This document shows positions 1 through 10,347 of a stretch of DNA of 10,915 bases, one piece after another. A model generated the notes under the pieces. That model worked only from the letters and a program-made list of their open reading frames with translations, was not told where the DNA came from and ran no database searches. Both the position numbers and the translations under genes were made by a program. How positions within the stretch are numbered: position 1 is the stretch's first letter; the number at the start of each line of letters is the position of its first letter. The stretch is from positions 1 through 10,915 of the forward strand of contig JANXTD010000678.1 of the NCBI GenBank assembly GCA_025352585.1, given 5' to 3'. The DNA is from Fimbriiglobus sp. Its GTDB lineage: Bacteria > Planctomycetota > Planctomycetia > Gemmatales > Gemmataceae.

Positions 1-1392
1 CGGCTTCGGCTCGTAGCCCAGCTCCTTCGCCCGCCGCCTCAGCCCCCGCTCCAACCGCTCGCGCACCTGCTCCGCGTAGGCCTCCTCCGTCTTCTTCACG
101 TAGGCCACCCCGTACCTCACCAGGCCGTAGACGATCCGCGCCAGCTTGTGCGCCGCCGCCGTGATCGCCTTCGGCGCCCCCAGCCGCGAACGCTGCCGGC
201 GCAGGTAGGCCCCGAGGTAGCCCTTGCTGCGGATCAGGCTCCAGGCCGCCAGCCGGAAGGCCCGGCCCGCCCGGTTCTTCCCCTTCCGCGTGCGGCTCGA
301 CTTCACCTTGCCCCCGGTCTGCTTGAACTGCGGGCAGAGCCCCAGCCAGCTCGCGAAGTGCCCCGCCGTCGGCCACTTCGCGAAGTCGCCCCCCAACTCG
401 CTCACGAGCGTGAGGGCGTTCACTTCGTCGATCCCCTCGATGGCCGTGAGGTCGACCCCGAGCACGAAGTCGAGGGCCGTCCGGACGTCGAAGGCGGGGT
501 CGTGCGGCTTCGTCCCGCGCACCCGCGGCTTCGGCGGCAGCGCCGGCAAGTCCGACTTCCGCTTCAGGGAGCGCAGGTGCGCCGCGATCTCCCCGTCCAG
601 TTCGGCGATGACCTCGCCGTACTTCTCCCACAGGCTCAGGCAGTGCCGGAGTTCGGAGACGAACTCCGGGCGGTAGCGGCCGTCGAGGGCCTCGGCGATC
701 GCCGCCTCGGCGCATTTGCAGCGGCGGTCGCGCAGCGCGGCCAGCGCCCGCGGGTCGCGTTCGCCCGCGGCGATGGCGCGGATGATCTTCAGGCCCGTGG
801 CCCCGGTGACGTCGCCGAGCACCTTCGTGAGCTTGAGGTTCATCAGCTCGAGCGCCTTCTGCATGCGCCGGATGTGCTGGCCCGACAGCCGGACGAAGTT
901 GGCCCGCTGGCGGACGTAGTCGCGCAGGGTCTGCGTGGCCCCGTCGGGCTGGAAGATGGGCGGCAGCAGTCCGTGGGCGTGGAGGCGGCGGATCCACTGG
1001 CGGTCGAGGCGGTCGGTCTTGGGCCGCCCCTTGATCTGCCGCGTGAAGGCGGGGGCGGTCATCACCGTCGTGAACCCGGCTTCGATGAGGGTGAGGAACA
1101 GCACGTGCCCGTAGACGCCGGAGGCTTCGAGGGCGACGGTGGTGACACCGCACTCGCGCAGCCACCCGACGAGGGCGCGGAGGCCGGGGGTGTGGGCGGG
1201 GAACTCGCGGACGGGGTCGGAGCCGTCGGGGGTCGATTCGACGCAGACCCAGCGGGTGGAGTCGCCGACGTCGAGGCCGGCGGCGTGGGCGTGCCGCACG
1301 GGCAGGGAGGCGAGTTCGGCGCACTCCCCGGCGGCGCGGCGGTCGGCGTCGGCGATCCGGGACGGGGGCGAGGGGGCTCGGGAGAGGGACAT
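1..1392 (-). CDS. IS110-family transposase (3' end outside window)
   Basis: This is a DEDD recombinase that moves the element through a bridge RNA joining donor and target DNA. The 464 codons present start at the ATG at 1392, which has a strong GGAGG 5 nt upstream. The N-terminal RuvC-like domain (about residues 38-200) has the expected acidic set: D41 in AGLDVGDS, E89 in VALEASGVY, and D127 and D130 in KTDRLD. A helical linker follows. The second domain (about 314-425) carries LTAIEGIDEVNALTLVSELG and HFASWLGLCP, as in the Transposase_20 family. At the SG(G) site, where the family usually has its nucleophilic serine, this protein reads KQTGG, so threonine T359 replaces serine; the alignment is from memory. 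Already longer than many IS110 transposases, it lacks a stop inside the window. Apart from T359 nothing suggests it is broken. Confidence 0.93.
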   Translation of the reverse strand, partial: MSLSRAPSPPSRIADADRRAAGECAELASLPVRHAHAAGLDVGDSTRWVCVESTPDGSDPVREFPAHTPGLRALVGWLRECGVTTVALEASGVYGHVLFLTLIEAGFTTVMTAPAFTRQIKGRPKTDRLDRQWIRRLHAHGLLPPIFQPDGATQTLRDYVRQRANFVRLSGQHIRRMQKALELMNLKLTKVLGDVTGATGLKIIRAIAAGERDPRALAALRDRRCKCAEAAIAEALDGRYRPEFVSELRHCLSLWEKYGEVIAELDGEIAAHLRSLKRKSDLPALPPKPRVRGTKPHDPAFDVRTALDFVLGVDLTAIEGIDEVNALTLVSELGGDFAKWPTAGHFASWLGLCPQFKQTGGKVKSSRTRKGKNRAGRAFRLAAWSLIRSKGYLGAYLRRQRSRLGAPKAITAAAHKLARIVYGLVRYGVAYVKKTEEAYAEQVRERLERGLRRRAKELGYEPKP

Positions 1393-1720
1393 GGGATCCT
1401 CCGGACGGGGAAAGGAAAAAGTGGCGTCGGGATGCGGCGGGGGGGTCGGCAGCGGGAACCAGCCGTCCCAACGGGATCGCACCGGAGTCGGCTACTGACA
1501 GGGGTGCGTCACCAACGAGTGGGCCGAAAATCGCCCCCCGACCCAAGCGAACCATCGGGCCGCGCGGAGGCGGCACCAGAAACGTGACGGGCGTGATCGC
1601 CGGACCCCGACGCCACGGATACGATAGGCGGGGCCGCCCCGAAGTTCCCGGCCGCCCGGGGCCCCCCACGAACCGGGCGCTGCAACTGGTTGACAGATAT
1701 TTCGACTGAGTCGCGGATGT
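1393..1720 (-). ncRNA. Candidate IS110 bridge RNA region
   Basis: This stretch lies directly upstream of the IS110 transposase and has no convincing gene. In the IS110 subgroup the bridge RNA is encoded in the non-coding end upstream of the transposase. Several short hairpins are visible on the transposase strand: a GC-rich one at about 1628-1667 with GGGGCC and GGCCCC arms; one at 1533-1560 with CCCGA/TCGGG arms around a 13-nt loop; and a small one near 1462-1475 (CCGT/ACGG, loop of 4). Large loops on stems fit a bridge RNA, but no guide/core match can be shown without the flanking target. RNA ends and promoter are undetermined. Confidence 0.3.
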
Positions 1721-2379: not shown

Positions 2380-3279
2380 TCACTTGTCCGGCGCGAGCAA
2401 GATCGCGTTCAGCCACTCGATGAACTCGCGGTCGGCTTTCAGCTTGGCGGTGTAATACGGCACGTAATACCCCATGCGGAACTGCTGGTTGATCCCCTCG
2501 TTGACCTCGGCTTCCAGACGCGACTTCGGCGCAGGAAAATCGAGCGGCGCATTCAGTTCCCGAAGCAGCTTCGTCGTCGTCTTCACCGAATCCTTCGACA
2601 CGTCGAGCATTTCGAGGATGGTCGCTCGCTCGGTGCGGCGGTGTTCCAAGAGCACTTCTCGCACCGCCGTGAGTTGCTCCTTTTCGAGCTGCGCTTCCTG
2701 GGCAACTAACAGGCAGCACTCGACGAACGCGGCTCGATTCTCCGCTTCGGCCGCCTTCTTCAACTCCGCGTCGCGCGAGACGGCGTAGGCCCACGCCGCG
2801 GCGTATAAGCGCAGCGTCTTCTTTCGCGCTGCCGCGTCGAGCAAGCCAGCCGCCGGCACCCAACTCGGATGGAGGACGATCTTCTCTTTCAGCCATGTCG
2901 ACTCTTCATCGGCCGACGTGCGGTGCTTGGCCGGCTCGGCGACCGATGCTAGGCAGCGGCACTTCCACTTCAAGATGCGGAACGATTTCTTGAACGGGTA
3001 TTCCTTGATCACGAGATCGACGTCGTCGAGCGCGGCCGCATACTCGCCCTTGAAGTACCTCGCCGTCGCGCGAAGCCCGAGAGCGTCGGGGTCGATCTTG
3101 CCCTTCTTGGCTTTGATCTGCTCGTTGGCCGCGTCGATTTGGGCATCGAGGACGCGAGTCAAGTGATCGATGTCGCCGGTTTGCTTCGGGGACGGCCCCG
3201 GCCGAGGTTCGTCGGCCGCCGCACAGCCGAACGCGGCGAGAGCAACGAACAGAACGACGCATCGCGACGGTGCAACCAT
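2380..3279 (-). CDS. Exported TPR-like protein of unknown function
   Basis: A 299-residue protein. I chose the ATG at 3279: it has GGAG 8 nt upstream and gives a compact signal sequence (MVAPSR, then a hydrophobic run to about residue 18). A GTG at 3297 would add six residues. The signal ends AAFGC-AAADE, so it could be a lipoprotein with an imperfect lipobox at C19, or be cut after AAA by signal peptidase I. After a Pro-rich linker, residues 63-98 (DALGLRATARYF...EYAAALDDVDLVIKEYP) look like one tetratricopeptide repeat. The rest (about 130-299) is charged and helical, with KKAAEAENRAA and REVLLEHRRTERATI, and ends FIEWLNAILLAPDK. I do not recognise a named family. It is downstream of and co-oriented with the sigma/kinase pair, now separated from it by IS630. 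A role in the same pathway is conceivable but unproven. Confidence 0.75.
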   Translation of the reverse strand: MVAPSRCVVLFVALAAFGCAAADEPRPGPSPKQTGDIDHLTRVLDAQIDAANEQIKAKKGKIDPDALGLRATARYFKGEYAAALDDVDLVIKEYPFKKSFRILKWKCRCLASVAEPAKHRTSADEESTWLKEKIVLHPSWVPAAGLLDAAARKKTLRLYAAAWAYAVSRDAELKKAAEAENRAAFVECCLLVAQEAQLEKEQLTAVREVLLEHRRTERATILEMLDVSKDSVKTTTKLLRELNAPLDFPAPKSRLEAEVNEGINQQFRMGYYVPYYTAKLKADREFIEWLNAILLAPDK

Positions 3280-3316
3280 GGCGAGAACTCCGATCACTGT
3301 GGAAGAGGAACCGAGG

Positions 3317-3513: not shown

Positions 3514-4619
3514 ATGACACCAACCATGCTGGTCCGCGAACTGACGGCCGACGAGCGGCAGGCCCTCCGGCGTGGCCTCCGGTCGGCCGACGGGTTCACC
3601 GTCCGCCGCTCCCAAGCCCTCCTCGCCAGCGCCGGCGGGGCCGGGCCGGCGGTCGTCGGAACCGCCGTCGGGCTGTCCGCCCAAGCCGTCCGCAACGCGA
3701 TCCGGGCGTTCCACGCCGACGGGCTCGGGTGCCTCACTCGCAAGCCGCCGGTGGCCAAAGCCCCGGCTCGCGTCTGGGACCGCACGCACGACGACGGCCT
3801 CAAGGACCTGCTCCACCGCCGGCCCCGGGAGTTCGGGAAGCCCACGAGCCTGTGGACGCTCGCCCTGGCGGCCGAAGTCTGTCACGCCCGGGGGTGGACG
3901 ACCCGGCGGCTGACGGCCGAGGGGATGCGGGGCGTGCTCGCCCGGCTCGGCATCGGGTGGACGCGGGCCAAGCACTGGATCACCAGTCCGGACCCCGACT
4001 ACGCCAAGAAAAAAAACTGCGGGATCGGCTGATCGCCCGGGCCGCGGGCAACCCCGATTGGGTGGTCGGGTTCCAGGACGAGTGTTGGTGGACGCGGCTG
4101 GCCCAACCCGACCTCTTCGCGTGGGCGGCCGGCGACCCGCTCCGACTCGGGGCCAACGCCCGCGACCCCAAGGGGGCGGGCGGGCGGGAAGCGGTCGCCT
4201 GCTACGGGGTTCTGCGGTCCGACACCGGCGGGATGATGCTCCGGTTCTGTGAGGGGCGGCCGGTGAGTGCGACCACCGAGGAGTTCCTCGGATGGGTGTG
4301 TGGGCAACTGGCGGGCGAGGGGAAGAACGTGTTCGTCCTCGTCTGGGACAACGCCGCCTGGCACGTGAGCAAGCGGGTCCGGCAATGGGTCGAGCGGCAC
4401 AACCGGCGGGTGCGGCGGGCCAAGAGCGGGTGCCGCATCCGGGTGTGCGGGCTGCCGGTGAAGGCCCCGTGGCTGAACCCGATCGAGCCGAAGTGGGTGC
4501 ACGGCAAGCGGGCCATCGTCGAACCGGACCGGAAGTTGTCGGCGGACGAGGTGCGGCAGCGGGCGTGCGACTATTACGGGTGCAAGCCCCAACCACTCTT
4601 GGCAAAGCCGGCGACCTGA
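3514..4619 (+). CDS. IS630-family transposase, expressed by -1 frameshifting
   Basis: A DDE transposase that cuts and pastes the element into TA sites. The first frame (3514-4032) carries an N-terminal helix-turn-helix, with VGLSAQAVRNAIRAFHADGL around residues 52-71. The catalytic core lies in the -1 frame, open from upstream of the shift to 4619: D in VVGFQDECWW, D in VFVLVWDNAAWH, and E in APWLNPIEPKW. The frames join at AAG AAA AAA AAC, where A AAA AAC at 4011-4017 is a classical -1 slippery heptamer. Slipping there gives a product of about 368 residues, normal for the family. A small hairpin (CGGG-ATC/GAT-CGCCCG) starts about 3 nt after the heptamer, closer than usual for a stimulator. 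A simple indel in the eight-A run is the alternative. Without the shift the product ends 5 codons later and lacks the DDE triad. Confidence 0.9.
4011..4017 (+). promoter_or_regulatory. A AAA AAC slippery heptamer for -1 frameshifting
   Basis: In the frame of the first transposase ORF this reads A|AAA|AAC. A tRNA slip to the -1 frame pairs with AAA AAA and continues with CTG CGG into the DDE domain. The eight-A run (4009-4016) would also permit transcriptional slippage. Two-frame IS630 transposases are known; use of this site is inferred. Confidence 0.65.
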
Positions 4620-4736: not shown

Positions 4737-7700
4737 CTATTTCACGGTCGGGGCCATGGCGTCTCGCCACTCCTTGTATGCCGCCAACTTCCTTACGGGC
4801 GCAAACACCGCGTCCTTCTCAATGAAATCCAACAGGGGCTTCCTAAAGGGAACCTTCCGTTGGAGGATTGACTCCAACAACGCTAACGATTGACGCGAGG
4901 CTTCGTCACTCACGGGCGGGAGTAGCTTGTCGTGCCCCGCGATTCGCGCCCACAAGAAGGCCAAGGGGTAAAGTTGGTCTTGCGGGACGTCCTGCCCAAG
5001 CGGTTCGAGCAATCGCATCGCTTCCGCGGGCTTGCCCGCGTTGTACCGCATCCAGGAAGCCTTTTCGCGGTACTCGCTACTAACACGCGGATTCTGTTTG
5101 GGGTTCATCAATTTCAGAGCAACCTCCCAGTCGTCGCCTGCCTCATCCCAGCGTTTAGCACCCTCGTACCGCTGCGCCCGGCGCTGGTGCAAGCTCATCC
5201 GAGCGGCAATTTCGGTCTGAGCCGTCTTCCCCAGCGACCTCGTCAACAAGTCAATGATGACCAGGTCGTTTTTCGCGCGGACGTAGGTATTTTTGCTGAG
5301 GTAATCACTGTGAAGATCATAAATTATCGTCAGTTGATTCAAGGCGTGAATCACTTCGAGATGGGGGTGCTTCTCCAGAACGGTCGCGCTGGAATACGCC
5401 TCCGTAATGCGCCCGTCCAGTGCTCGCGCCTCGGCGGCATTGAGTTGGTCGCGCCAAGCCTCGGCCGGCGCGGCGAGTTTGGCGGCGTCATCGGCATCCA
5501 GGGCGGCTTCACGGTATCGCCCCAAGGCCATCTGCCACCGGGTGCGGTCCCGGTACCGCTCGCGGAGGAAGTCGGGCTGTCGGTGCTTGTCTCGGCCCTG
5601 CCAGGCTTTGATCAGGGCGATACCCTCATCATGGTCGCGCAGCGCCTCCGCGAACCTTTTCAGTCCCGCGAAGGCTTGCGCCCTCCGCGAGTAACAGTCG
5701 AGCAAGCCATCCCAGTCGTTAAGGCGAGGCTGCTGCGACCCGCGGTAGAGTGGGCCTAGCGTGGAAATCACTTTCGCCGCCCAGACTGCGACATCCGTAG
5801 GGACGCTCTGGGCGTGCAGGATCTCCCGTTGGATGCCGGCGAGTTGGCGGGCAAACTGGTTGTTCCGAGGGTTGAGGTTTGCCAGCCGCTCCGTCACTGG
5901 CAGCACGGCCATCAGGAGTTCCATCGCCCGGTCCGGCTGGTTATTTGCCCTGGCGTGGTTGATGAGGAGTCGATGCGCCAGATACCATTCGACCTCGTCG
6001 CGGAGGTCGTCGCCATCCTTGCCGACCATGTCCCGCAGTGTCGATACGGAGACGGCGGCGCACTCGCGGCCGGCCTCGGCCTCCCCGGTGTTCGTCAAAT
6101 AATAGGCCATACTGTTACACACTTGGGCCAGTTCGCTGCGATGCTTTGGCTCCCGAGGGTCCTGCTCAAGCGTCTTCACCTGCCAGCGACGGGCGGCCTC
6201 GAACGCCACCCGCGCGCGGGGGTGGTCATTCTGGTCGCGGGCGATCACCGCCAGTCGGTAATTCGCGGCGGCTTGCTGGGCGAGATACTCCGTCCGTGCG
6301 TCGATCCGCGTGACCTCCTCCCACAGGCCCACCGCCCGCTCGCATAGCTCATTCGCCTCCTTCTTGTTCGCTCGCGCGGCCGGGGCGCGTTCATGATGGA
6401 CCTGGAATCCGGCCGAACTGAACGCTTCGGCGAGGCACGCCCGGTAAGCGACTGTGTCAGGGTGGTCCGCGGTTAGACCCTCGAACAGATCGATCGCCGT
6501 GCGGACTTGGCTAATGCCCTCCTGCGATTCGCCCAGCAGGCGGTGCAACTCACCAAGTCGCATGTGGGCCAGCCCGTTGCGGTGCCGCACCTCCGGCCGG
6601 TCGCTGTTGCGGTCGATCAGGCTGCGGAACCCCTCAATGGCGTCGCGTAGCAACCTCCGCGAGCCCGTAGTCGGCTTGCCGTGAGCGATCATTTCATTCT
6701 CGACCATCCCGATCAGGCGCTCGTGCGAGGCCAGGGACTTTTCCAGGGCGTCGCGGGAGCGCTCGGCTTCGTGGAGGGCAACGCCGGCGCTCTGATCGGC
6801 CCGCGTCGCCTCGGATCTGGCTCGCGACATCTGCCACAAGCTGAAGGCCAAGCCGAGTGTCAGCGCGGCGACAATCCCGACCGCCGCCCGCACGACGACA
6901 CGCCTCCGGCGACGTTGCTCCACATCGCGCACGGCGGCCGCCGCCCGCTCCGTTTCCGCCGCCCGCAGTTGCTGGGTGATGCGGTGCCGGTAGTCGGCCA
7001 CCCATTCGGCCACGGCACCGCCGTTCGCCGGACGATCACTCGGATCGATCGATAGGCAACGTATGGCGAGGCCGATCAACTCCGACTCGGCACCGCACGC
7101 CGCGAGGTGACCGCGGATTCCACTCAGGTCGCCGGCCGCAGCGGCCTCGAGGACGTCGTCTCGTGAGACCCCGGAGTAGACCGGTTGGCCGGTGAGCACG
7201 AACGCCAGCAATCCCCCCAGACCGAACACGTCGGCGCGGGCATCGACGGCTTCGACGCGCGCTTGTTCCGGTGCCATGAACGACGGCGTGCCGACGATGC
7301 TGCCGAGTTGCGACGCATCCACCGACGCGGGGGATGGATCGGCCGAGTCTTCAGCCGTTTCCACCAGTTCCTTAGCCAAGCCCCAGTCCATGACCTGAAC
7401 TTCGCCGAACTCGCCGACCATGACGTTCTGGGGCTTCAGGTCGCGGTGGATGATGCCGTGGGCGTGGGCGTACCCCACGGCCCGGGCTACGGATTCGAAG
7501 GTGTCGAGGAGTCCGGCGGCACCGTGCGGTTGCGCGTCCAGCGTCTGACCCCGGATCAGCTTCATCGCGAGGTAAGGTCGGCCGTCCGGCAGCGTGCCGA
7601 CGCGGTGAATGGGCGGAATGCCGGGGTGCTGCAACCGCCCGGCGATTCGCGCTTCTCGCAGGAATCGGCCTCGCGCGGCCGGCGACCCGGCGAGTTTCGT

Positions 7701-8003
7701 ACGCACGGTCTTGATGGCGATATCGCGGCCGAACGCGGGGTCGTGCCCCAGGTAGACGATGCCCATGCCGCCGCGCGCCAGTTCCGGGCCGATGGTGTAG
7801 CCATCGACCGCGTCGGGCGGGGCGACTTCATCGGGTTCGGCCAGCGGGTGCTCGGCCCACGCGAGCATCAGCGATACCAGCCGAGTTTCGCAAGCATGAC
7901 AGGTCGAAACGTGGGCATCGGTGCGGCGTTCGTCGTCGGGGCCGAGGCTCCCGTCCAGGAATTGCTTCAGCACATCTTCGGGCGGGCATTGGGAATTCGA
8001 CAT
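4737..8003 (-). CDS. Transmembrane Ser/Thr protein kinase with zinc-finger-like N-terminus and TPR tail
   Basis: A 1088-residue PknB/Hanks-type kinase. The N-terminus (about 8-45) resembles an anti-sigma zinc finger, with H31-x3-C35-x2-C38 (HVSTCHAC). The kinase domain spans about 68-340: Gly loop ARGGMG (76-81), ATP lysine K98, helix-C E117, catalytic HRDLKPQN (186-193), metal-binding D206 in DWG (Trp replaces the usual Phe), APE at 244-246 and DRP at 323-325. An Arg/Glu-rich helix (342-369) leads to one TM segment (about 370-391), then a coiled coil (392-435) and a long array of TPR-like helical repeats to about 1030. The kinase should be cytoplasmic and the TPRs across the membrane. The start follows the sigma factor stop by 3 nt, so the two are probably co-translated. 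Catalytic residues are intact. Its last 50 or so residues reappear as a broken copy at 1887-2082. Confidence 0.93.
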   Translation of the reverse strand: MSNSQCPPEDVLKQFLDGSLGPDDERRTDAHVSTCHACETRLVSLMLAWAEHPLAEPDEVAPPDAVDGYTIGPELARGGMGIVYLGHDPAFGRDIAIKTVRTKLAGSPAARGRFLREARIAGRLQHPGIPPIHRVGTLPDGRPYLAMKLIRGQTLDAQPHGAAGLLDTFESVARAVGYAHAHGIIHRDLKPQNVMVGEFGEVQVMDWGLAKELVETAEDSADPSPASVDASQLGSIVGTPSFMAPEQARVEAVDARADVFGLGGLLAFVLTGQPVYSGVSRDDVLEAAAAGDLSGIRGHLAACGAESELIGLAIRCLSIDPSDRPANGGAVAEWVADYRHRITQQLRAAETERAAAAVRDVEQRRRRRVVVRAAVGIVAALTLGLAFSLWQMSRARSEATRADQSAGVALHEAERSRDALEKSLASHERLIGMVENEMIAHGKPTTGSRRLLRDAIEGFRSLIDRNSDRPEVRHRNGLAHMRLGELHRLLGESQEGISQVRTAIDLFEGLTADHPDTVAYRACLAEAFSSAGFQVHHERAPAARANKKEANELCERAVGLWEEVTRIDARTEYLAQQAAANYRLAVIARDQNDHPRARVAFEAARRWQVKTLEQDPREPKHRSELAQVCNSMAYYLTNTGEAEAGRECAAVSVSTLRDMVGKDGDDLRDEVEWYLAHRLLINHARANNQPDRAMELLMAVLPVTERLANLNPRNNQFARQLAGIQREILHAQSVPTDVAVWAAKVISTLGPLYRGSQQPRLNDWDGLLDCYSRRAQAFAGLKRFAEALRDHDEGIALIKAWQGRDKHRQPDFLRERYRDRTRWQMALGRYREAALDADDAAKLAAPAEAWRDQLNAAEARALDGRITEAYSSATVLEKHPHLEVIHALNQLTIIYDLHSDYLSKNTYVRAKNDLVIIDLLTRSLGKTAQTEIAARMSLHQRRAQRYEGAKRWDEAGDDWEVALKLMNPKQNPRVSSEYREKASWMRYNAGKPAEAMRLLEPLGQDVPQDQLYPLAFLWARIAGHDKLLPPVSDEASRQSLALLESILQRKVPFRKPLLDFIEKDAVFAPVRKLAAYKEWRDAMAPTVK

Positions 8004-8006
8004 CGG

Positions 8007-9068
8007 TTATTCGCTCGTGCCGCGGTCGGCGAGGCGGAGGTATTCCTTGCGGATCATCTTCAAAATGCGGTAGCGGGCTTGGTAGACGGCACCGGTGGTC
8101 ATCCCCAACTCGGCGGCGACTTCCGCGGCCGGGCGTTTTTCCAACTCGTGGCATTCGAAGGCACGCCAGTTCCGGGGTTCCACGCTCCCGCGAACCGCTT
8201 CCATCGCCTCGCGCATCAGCCGCTGTCCGCGGTCGTCAATACGGCTCGAGAGATCATCGACCGAGGCGTCCTCGGCAAGTTGTCCCAGAGCTTCCAGCGC
8301 TGCGGAGCCACCGGCCCCGGCGTCTGCCGGGTGTCTGGATTGCGTGCGGACGTCGTCGAGCAGAGTCCGGCGGAGGATCGTCGCCAACCAAGGTCGGAAG
8401 TCCCCGGCGGCCGGGTCGTAAGACGCGATGTTCCGGTAAAGCTTCAGAAGCACCCGCTGGGTCACGTCCTCGGCGTCGTGGTGGAGCAGGCGATGACGGA
8501 CGAACCACTGCTGAATCGGCGGGCCGTAGACGGCGACGAACCGCGTCCAGTGGATGCCGCCGTTGCCGTCCCAGTCGCCGACGACGGGCGCGTCGGCCGC
8601 AAGCCCGAACTGCCGCGCCCGCGGGTTGGCGTAGACTTGGCGCGTCGTGTCCAGATACCAGTCGAGGGCACCGCTCTGGGGGTTCTTCCGCGCCACGCCG
8701 ACGTCGATGGTCCGGTCGCCGTTCCAGTCGCCGAGGAACGGCGTGTCGTCCGCGAGGCCGAACTTGTGTTCGGCGTCGGCCTTGCCGTCGCCGTTCGTGT
8801 CGATGGCCCAGTTCAGTCCGCCCTCGGGGTTGGCGCGGACGAACACCAGGTCGGCCTTGCCGTCGCCGTTCCAGTCGCCAGCGAGGTGACGGCCGCCGGG
8901 CTGGCCCAGGTGGCGTACTTGTTCGGCGTTGGGGCCGACGCGGTCGCCGGCGAGGAACAAGTCCTGAGCGTCGCGGACGACGCCGACGAAGTCGCCGAGC
9001 GGCGAGGCGGAGGGCACGTCGCGCGCCTCCAGCGCTTCGAGTTTCAGGGTGTGACGGGGGGGTGCCAT
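8007..9068 (-). CDS. Chimeric ORF: FG-GAP-type repeat protein N-terminus fused to an ECF sigma factor
   Basis: A 353-residue ORF. The start at 9068 has AGGAG 9 nt upstream; an in-frame ATG at 9128 would add 20 residues and lacks that support. Residues 1-170 look like a planctomycete extracellular protein: LKLEALEARDVPSA near the N-terminus, then calcium-loop-like repeats GDWNGDGKAD (64-73), DTNGDGKAD (90-98), GDWNGDRTID (113-122) and the start of another, GDWDGNG (164-170). At about 171-174 (DNA 8547-8558) the sequence switches to an ECF sigma factor: region 2 from HWTRFVAVYG through DAEDVTQRVLLKLYR and FRPWLATILRRTLLDDVR, then region 4 (about 301-345) with the helix-turn-helix AAEVAAELGMTTGAVYQAR. 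The usual first 20 or so residues of the sigma factor, including its own start, are missing. It should direct RNA polymerase to genes of the pathway sensed by the downstream kinase. Whether the product is active or exported is unknown. Misassembly is possible. Confidence 0.85.
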   Translation of the reverse strand: MAPPRHTLKLEALEARDVPSASPLGDFVGVVRDAQDLFLAGDRVGPNAEQVRHLGQPGGRHLAGDWNGDGKADLVFVRANPEGGLNWAIDTNGDGKADAEHKFGLADDTPFLGDWNGDRTIDVGVARKNPQSGALDWYLDTTRQVYANPRARQFGLAADAPVVGDWDGNGGIHWTRFVAVYGPPIQQWFVRHRLLHHDAEDVTQRVLLKLYRNIASYDPAAGDFRPWLATILRRTLLDDVRTQSRHPADAGAGGSAALEALGQLAEDASVDDLSSRIDDRGQRLMREAMEAVRGSVEPRNWRAFECHELEKRPAAEVAAELGMTTGAVYQARYRILKMIRKEYLRLADRGTSE

Positions 9069-9465
9069 CGGGAAAGTCTCCTGTCGTTCGGGTGACGAGG
9101 TCCTGTACATTCGGCTGAACGGAATCACATCTCTCTCACGCAGACCGACCCACGCAGCTGAGTCCGAAGAACTCCGACTATAAGCGCGGGGCTGAGGCGC
9201 GGCCTAACGCGGCCTCCGTATCGCCGTGTTGGACAACTGGAGTACGCCGGCCCCTGACGCGCTTTGAGAAAAATCGGCCCAGGAAGACTCGTATCGGCTG
9301 CCATCAAGGCCACCTCGCGACCGTGCCGTTCTCGGCGTCGGCCGTCTGCACTGTGCCGCAGGTCACACTTGGGCGGTGGCGACATCCCTTTTGTCTCGCC
9401 GGGGCCGGCAGATTGCGGAGCCTCGCGCCGGGCCGCCATACGGCGTGAAACGGGTCACGGCAGGG
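9069..9465. other. 397-bp gap: likely promoter region of the sigma/kinase operon
   Basis: This lies between the stop of the Sel1-repeat gene and the sigma factor start, both on the minus strand. It holds the second copy of the 24-bp repeat (9238-9261). It also holds an imperfect inverted repeat on the minus strand, AGTCGGAGTTCTTCGGACT (about 9161-9179), just after CTTATAGT, which could include a -10 box. A minus-strand open frame at 9125-9439 has Arg/Pro-rich composition without domains and is not credible. No terminator with a T-run was found. Confidence 0.35.
9238..9261. repeat. Copy 2 of the 24-bp repeat
   Basis: TGGAGTACGCCGGCCC followed by CTGACGCG. The first 16 bases are identical to 3317-3332 and in the same orientation. 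It lies 169 nt upstream of the sigma factor start on the minus strand. Sequences beyond the 24 bp do not match, so this is not a large duplication. Confidence 0.5.
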
Positions 9466-9473
9466 TCACGGCA
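9452..9473. repeat. 11-bp tandem duplication at the Sel1 gene stop
   Basis: GGGTCACGGCA occurs twice in a row (9452-9462 and 9463-9473). The second copy contains the TGA of the Sel1-repeat gene. It looks like replication slippage and has no evident effect on the protein. Confidence 0.8.
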
Positions 9474-10347
9474 GTTTCTTGAGTTCCTCGCCCGCGGGGC
9501 GGTGGCCGTTCCTCGCGGCTCGCTCCAGCCACCGCTTCGCGGCGGGGATGTCCTGCTCGGTGCCGAGGCCCTTGGCGTAGCGCAAACCGAGGTTGTACTG
9601 GGAATCGGTCATCCCGTTCTCCGCCGCTTGACGGAACCAGTACGTCGCCTGCTTCTCGTCCTTCTCGACGCCCATGCCTTCGGCGTAGTGACACGCGAGG
9701 TCGTGTTGGGCGTTGCCATACCCCTGCTTCGCGGACTTCAGGTACCAAGCGGTCGATTCCTTCAGATCCCTGTCGAAGCCTTTGCCCACGGCGTACCAGG
9801 AACCCAGCGAGTACTGAGCTTCCTTATCGCCGGATTCGGCGTCCGCGATCAACAGGGTGCGAGCTTCGTCCGGCCTGTTCTGCAACCGCGGCTCGTTCGC
9901 AAGGAGTTGCCACAGCTTGTTCCGAGCACGCGCATGTCCCTGAGCCGCGGCGGTACGAAGCCATTCGGCAGCTTGAACGTGATCCTGTTTGACACCGCGG
10001 CCCATGAAGTAATAAAGGCCCATTTGGTGTTGGGCGTCAGCGTGGCCGTTGCGCGCGGCCCGCAGAATCCAGGTAACGGCTTCGATCGTCTTCTCAGGTT
10101 GCTCATCGCGACCGAAGCCGAGTGGCGCGAGCAGTAGCATGTCCATCCCCTTGCGGTACTGCGCGTCGGCGTAGCCCTGCAGGGCCGCGGCGTTCAGCAA
10201 CCCGTCCGACTCGGCTTTCGTGACGGCGATGACCCCGCCCTTGCCCACGGTGCCTGGGTAGGCGCACGCGAGCAGGAACTGCGCCGCCGCCGCCATGTTC
10301 TGCCCGGCCGCCCGGCGGAGCCAGACGTTCGCTTCCCCGAAGTCCAC
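9466..10347 (-). CDS. Sel1-repeat protein, apparently 5'-truncated
   Basis: The protein is built from Sel1-like repeats of about 36 residues, a solenoid that binds other proteins. Seven complete repeats can be followed, among them ADAQHQMGLYYFMGRGV, EAQYSLGSWYAVGKGF, NAQHDLACHYAEGMGV and DSQYNLGLRYAKGLGT, ending EELKKLP. The only usable start is a GTG at 10347, but it cuts a repeat in half. The frame stays open upstream to 10416 and encodes the first half of that repeat (DAQHRLALAYLGGIGVEVD) before an in-frame TGA at 10417-10419. No start codon or signal peptide lies in that extension, so the true N-terminus has been lost. Immediately beyond, a different gene begins on the other strand. The stop lies in an 11-bp tandem duplication (9452-9473). 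Expression from the GTG is possible; a pseudogene is as likely. Confidence 0.75.
   Translation of the reverse strand: MDFGEANVWLRRAAGQNMAAAAQFLLACAYPGTVGKGGVIAVTKAESDGLLNAAALQGYADAQYRKGMDMLLLAPLGFGRDEQPEKTIEAVTWILRAARNGHADAQHQMGLYYFMGRGVKQDHVQAAEWLRTAAAQGHARARNKLWQLLANEPRLQNRPDEARTLLIADAESGDKEAQYSLGSWYAVGKGFDRDLKESTAWYLKSAKQGYGNAQHDLACHYAEGMGVEKDEKQATYWFRQAAENGMTDSQYNLGLRYAKGLGTEQDIPAAKRWLERAARNGHRPAGEELKKLP

Follow-up and report, generated by a model that had tools for sequence, protein, structure and literature searches.

A putative in-frame fusion of an FG-GAP surface-protein gene and an ECF sigma factor gene on a draft Fimbriiglobus contig

The window analyzed here, the whole 10,915-nt contig JANXTD010000678.1 of Fimbriiglobus sp., carries on its minus strand a stop-free open reading frame of 353 aa that runs from an FG-GAP-type start into an ECF sigma factor. 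Its product begins with the front 171 residues of one protein and goes on with another from residue 21 onward. Comparison with the homologs of each part leads us to favor, with about even confidence, a single recent illegitimate fusion of an FG-GAP gene and an ECF gene, unique rather than a refined regulatory design. We infer that the join exists in the cell; it is known here from one draft assembly only, a MAG in 964 contigs that is 86.95% complete.

The chimeric frame and its two halves

An earlier sequence-only reading of the window had described one uninterrupted ORF spanning FG-GAP repeats and an ECF sigma factor, with the change from one to the other at about 8547-8558. The frame is confirmed; it lies at 8007..9068 on the minus strand, open from the ATG at 9068-9066 to the TAA at 8009-8007. 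The meeting place also holds up. Homologs, collected by a search of a 5.8-billion-protein set, give a junction at 8555..8561 (minus strand), and the break is set after G170, the last codon that is certainly FG-GAP, and before I172, the first that is certainly ECF, because homologs of each half stop or start matching there. According to the same alignments, the junction falls inside the third GDWDGNG loop of the FG-GAP half. A Shine-Dalgarno-like AGGAG, read directly from the sequence, is found at 9078..9082 (minus strand), 9 nt before the ATG at 9068; the frame could alternatively open upstream, at a GTG at 9128, which would give a 373-aa protein. No promoter or terminator came up in scans of 8900-9600.

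The FG-GAP half (residues 1-171; 8556..9068, minus strand) has the N-terminus LEALEARDVPSA and three GDW[DN]G motifs, and was delimited by its FG-GAP_3 match and by alignment with the 560-aa FG-GAP surface protein P0004. Taken alone, these residues pass the Pfam FG-GAP_3 profile over three stretches (28.7 bits; cut-off, 26.9), whereas the 373-aa form scores 23.3 bits, below the cut-off. P0004 is 73% identical to residues 1-171 and has the same N-terminus. Unlike the fusion, it has beyond the break another two GDW/GAW motifs as well as a carboxypeptidase-regulatory-like domain and an additional C-terminal stretch; the repeat set of the fusion is thus incomplete, ending in its third motif where P0004 has five.

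The ECF part (residues 172-353; 8010..8555, minus strand) comprises regions 2 and 4 without the first 20 residues, as judged from Pfam and NCBIfam profiles and from homolog alignment. In searches with the whole ORF, Sigma70_r2 (E 1e-13, 51.3 bits; cut-off, 24) and the NCBIfam sigma70-ECF profile (64.6 bits; cut-off, 42.9) both pass, while Sigma70_r4_2 (E 5.5e-4, 20.0 bits) stays under its cut-off of 25.7, compared with 26.4 bits for P0002. The proteins P0002 and P0003 are stand-alone ECF sigma factors of 202 aa, which are 93.4% and 92.3% identical, respectively, to the fusion over the 182 residues held in common, but which have no repeat domain and do have about 20 N-terminal residues (PSTHWS...) that the fusion lacks. 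Their residue 21 corresponds to I172 of the fusion, and the 20 missing residues ahead of it begin MLPSTHWSAFRDADAEDGVG. Consistent with this, the Sigma70_r2 match starts at profile position 14 of 71 in the fusion and at position 6 in P0002. The sequence-only reading had placed the natural beginning of the sigma factor about 20 residues earlier, as these homologs now do, and had held that the sigma part lacks a separate start. That claim, too, is borne out: the earliest in-frame GTG and ATG past the junction encode residues 202 and 285, respectively, both within the sigma domain, so the sigma part has no start before region 2. Although P0002, P0003 and P0004 are relatives of the parents rather than proteins of the same strain as the contig, the identity found in both halves (73% to P0004 and 92-93% to P0002 and P0003) makes the chimera more than a chance resemblance.

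The lost segment is conserved among ECF sigma factors. A segment resembling S/T-T-x-x-S-L-L precedes a conserved tryptophan in 15 of 17 aligned ECF rows (counted by eye), the two exceptions being P0128 and P0131, and the fusion has none. Counts made with regular expressions were set aside (44/89 with one pattern, 84/94 with a looser pattern that P0005 fails); since they varied with the pattern, we rest the count on the 17-row alignment. That alignment has 14 invariant and 7 nearly invariant positions; the fusion retains the residue at every one of them, and therefore its ECF part is without visible decay, as expected of a young fusion. The acidic motif of region 2, DAED, is intact at residues 198-201. 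In a three-way comparison the fusion has nine private residues, P0002 three and P0003 five; with no outgroup this is no test of rate, and it does not exclude that the ECF part may have loosened somewhat.

An AlphaFold2 model of the fusion (built from a 40-row alignment; mean pLDDT 82.5, pTM 0.58) has 11 strands followed by helices that start at residue 169, and its confidence falls below a pLDDT of 50 at residues 166-170 and 1-25. The predicted structure shows two parts folded separately, with no known joint architecture. A Foldseek search with the model returned ECF sigma factors as the top PDB matches (from Mycobacterium tuberculosis initiation complexes), five of them with E no higher than 0.001; TM-scores over the whole model were low.

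Search for a second fusion and for the parent genes

Relatives of the two halves are separate proteins elsewhere, as the sequence-only reading had proposed: P0002 and P0003 match one, P0004 the other, and none of 217 fetched relatives (120 listed of 455, plus 97 more) contains both. Fifteen FG-GAP proteins among these relatives have alignments that cross the junction, reaching residue 225 at most, and a sigma region-2 motif is absent from all 15.

Genomes were searched for further fusions in three overlapping sets, each of which included the source genome: 59 genomes (its own and relatives) at E 1e-3, 397 of the class at E 1e-18 and 392 of the phylum at E 1e-28, with at most 35, 5 and 5 candidates scored per genome, respectively. 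Among the matches listed, there was no second one with both halves in any set, and all fell on the sigma part except a single FG-only row (genome G365, residues 55-166). Some sigma matches start at query residues 122-157, at least 14 residues before the junction; the seven of these that were fetched proved to be ordinary frames of 209-260 aa without a GDW-type motif. Long open frames around ECF matches of the 59-genome set were examined at 16 loci and none held a GDW-type FG-GAP motif. In 13 of the 16 an ATG lies 6-34 residues before the sigma match, the exceptions being L152 (no such ATG), L157 (62 residues, among the 12 listed) and L165 (90 residues); the frames examined for L156 and L159 are shorter than the figure given by the search program.

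Within the source genome each half has one place, and both places are in the chimeric ORF; otherwise there are weaker FG-GAP matches on another contig (C285) and other ECF genes. The remainder of a P0004-like protein was not found in the genome at E 0.001. A separate scan of genome contigs gave only a 39% relative. Close ECF relatives were sought in 95 family genomes at E 1e-40, where the fusion itself was the only match, and in the 397 class genomes at E 1e-30, where the rows besides the fusion are 35-43% identical.

At the locus of another ECF gene of this genome (L003, on C455 of G000; 35% identical), an ORF carrying VEQLEPRITPTGG follows 43 nt later. This sequence presumably resembles the start of planctomycete surface proteins, and from this locus ECF and surface-protein genes may adjoin each other in this genome.

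The downstream kinase and the contig

Downstream coupling of a kinase, also part of the sequence-only reading, agrees with the gene layout: a Ser/Thr kinase gene (1088 aa; 4737..8003, minus strand) begins 3 nt after the ECF stop. The kinase has a zinc-finger-like N-terminus, a kinase domain, one hydrophobic segment (by eye) and a TPR region. In the N-terminus, H-x3-C-x2-C is present as HVSTCHAC, and zf-HC2 scores 18.3 bits, below its cut-off of 22.2. A search for kinase relatives at E 1e-130, in which no more than 8 candidates were scored for each genome, returned only this contig's own kinase.

Similar arrangements occur at other ECF loci. Of 19 loci, 12 were counted, seven being left out for wrong orientation (L004, L031, L057, L058, L060, L061 and L063). 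At half of the 12 an ORF with a kinase motif, a zinc motif or both lies 7-96 nt beyond the ECF (L002, L005, L010, L012, L062 and L064), and at the other half neither kinase nor zinc motif follows (L003, L006, L007, L011, L056 and L059). In addition, the ECF protein P0005 (52% identical to the query) and the kinase P0233 both derive from jgi contigs 7848 bases long, and probably from the same contig. P0233, thus paired with P0005, has the same layout as this contig's kinase, to which it is 36% identical over 701 aligned residues. On this evidence the ECF-kinase pairing is an ordinary one, and a kinase with a zinc-finger-like N-terminus is a usual partner for an ECF. Sequestration by the zinc-finger-like N-terminus of the kinase would be the likelier normal control of the sigma factor. 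The groups ECF43, ECF59 and ECF60, linked to Ser/Thr kinases, resemble the fusion in having a kinase gene that adjoins the ECF; as described in passages of PMC8103513, however, uncharged, phosphorylatable residues stand in place of their DAED and phosphorylation restores the charge, whereas the fusion has an intact DAED and its kinase an anti-sigma-like zinc motif. Restoration of the DAED charge by the kinase, as in the ECF43/59 mode, does not fit here because the DAED is present.

GC3 changes across the junction, from 0.906 in the FG-GAP half to 0.797 in the ECF part (Fisher p 0.0045). In seven other ECF matches of this genome it is 0.867-0.987 (strand chosen by eye), and the genome median is 0.93 over 218 called ORFs, 19 of which stand at or below 0.82. 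These ORFs were called with a simple custom script on 59 usable of 80 contig stretches, 8 of the 80 having been chosen for holding matches. Elsewhere on the contig, GC3 is 0.78 in the kinase gene, 0.80 in the gene at 2383-3297, 0.76 in the right-end gene and 0.81 in a gene upstream of the chimeric frame for a Sel1-repeat protein (9466..10347, minus strand; Sel1 E 5.7e-39). The five scored non-IS coding stretches outside the FG-GAP half have GC3 of 0.72-0.81, far under the genome median, and only the FG-GAP half and the IS110-type gene are host-like (the IS630-like element was left out of scoring). Low GC3 across most of the scored genes makes the whole contig either an island or a misbinned stretch. 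Codon usage was considered, and ruled out, as a way of assigning the two halves to two organisms: the Sel1 gene, on the FG-GAP side, has GC3 as low as the ECF side, and so the contig cannot be divided into two genomes at the junction by this measure.

The contig carries two transposase loci. An IS110-type transposase gene (1-1482, minus strand; GC3 0.96) is cut by the contig end and, besides itself, has one short 80% match only in the genome. An IS630-like transposase (3514-4619, plus strand) is encoded in two overlapping frames, an HTH ORF at 3514-4032 and a DDE_3 ORF at 3729-4619, whose overlap contains eight consecutive A (4009-4016), as expected of a transposase made by frameshifting; partial, diverged matches to the element (74-86%) occur on five other contigs of the genome. 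Between the two loci, the ORF at 2383-3297 (minus strand, 305 aa) has no Pfam match up to E 0.1.

Origin of the join

The favored event would be one illegitimate recombination, either a deletion or the insertion of one gene end beside another, which would have placed an ECF gene, from codon 21 onward, behind the upstream region, the ribosome site and codons 1-171 of an FG-GAP surface-protein gene. The normal partner of the ECF parent would be the kinase directly downstream. After such an event the sigma factor would be made, if at all, from the signals of the surface protein, and translation along the shared message would still reach the kinase gene. The incomplete 171-residue repeat domain would sit where the first helix of the sigma factor should be, and because of this replacement the fused sigma factor has probably lost some or all of its activity. 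A random event would only in a minority of cases join two genes on the same strand and in frame; this weighs neither way here, because the finding was picked for being in frame.

The main rival, which comes second and is a serious possibility though short of even, is a library chimera or an assembly misjoin of unrelated genes, from one organism or from two. At the break itself, the parents implied by the homologs have about 4 bases in common, going by P0002 and P0004 at the protein level; an Ile there in the FG-GAP parent, as in its second blade (repeat D2), would perhaps make it 7. Assembler k-mer sizes far exceed 4-7 bases, and the overlap is therefore too short for k-mer joining by an assembler; nor does the contig sequence have Ns at the junction. 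Codon usage cuts both ways. A chimera of two sources would give the same GC3 change at the junction, and the ECF part and kinase (0.80 and 0.78) look foreign to a genome in which the seven other ECF matches have GC3 of 0.867 or above; a simple two-genome chimera, however, predicts a host-like right side, and the Sel1 gene there is as low as the ECF side. The fragmentation of the MAG is in keeping with an artifact, as is the lack of a second both-halves match among those listed in the 59, 397 and 392 genomes and among the 217 proteins. That the whole contig is atypical of its genome also counts against a real fusion. Likewise, among the protein matches listed, this contig's kinase is present (as P0219) and the fusion protein is absent; we give this little weight, and the absence may stem merely from gene calling.

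Passages of PMC8103513 report N-terminally extended ECF sigma factors in Planctomycetes (the original groups ECF87, ECF88 and ECF89), state that such extensions may stem from gene fusion and note that no mechanistic information on them exists. As a kind, the present fusion would be a variant of these, since it likewise has additional protein ahead of a sigma factor. The extensions of ECF87-89 define groups of genes, though (PMC8103513), whereas the fusion, compared by description only, is a singleton in which part of the sigma domain is replaced, with no second case of its extension among the matches listed. A paper on planctomycete kinases notes that in Gemmataceae ECF domains are found in combination with WD40 repeats (PMC11032199). 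In the open-licence literature we found no paper on a fusion of an ECF sigma factor with FG-GAP repeats.

These precedents, together with the open frame, the conserved ECF core and a model in which both halves are folded (mean pLDDT as above), are what a working chimera could draw on, one whose FG-GAP half would be a calcium-binding or localizing N-terminal arm controlling the sigma factor. We consider it unlikely. The sequence-only reading had suggested that the repeats might act as a metal-binding regulatory arm, and an evolved arm of that kind is hard to reconcile with a repeat domain cut inside its third loop when P0004 has five motifs, with the loss of the conserved ECF start (carried by 15 of the 17 aligned rows) and with the absence of any orthologous fusion among the matches listed. 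The fullest version, a real, population-fixed and functional fusion in which a cytoplasmic FG-GAP domain would replace the first helix and sense a divalent metal or site the sigma factor at the envelope, under dual control with the kinase, is slightly less likely still. Most improbable is a dead or mis-sorted product, in which the surface-type start would export the sigma factor or the fusion would be degraded, the operon being kept for the kinase alone: the alignment of the N-terminus with P0004, which has a weak Planc_extracel (PF07595) match (20.7 bits; cut-off, 25.5), the lost start of the sigma domain and the kinase start 3 nt from the ECF stop would suit it, but Planc_extracel was unreported for the fusion's own FG-GAP half at E up to 1, and the frame has accumulated no stop or frameshift.

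The single recent fusion remains our preferred reading. Were the join an artifact, it would serve as a warning against inferring domain fusions from fragmented MAGs; if it is real, the contig would have caught in the act the fusion of a transcription factor gene with that of a surface-type repeat protein.
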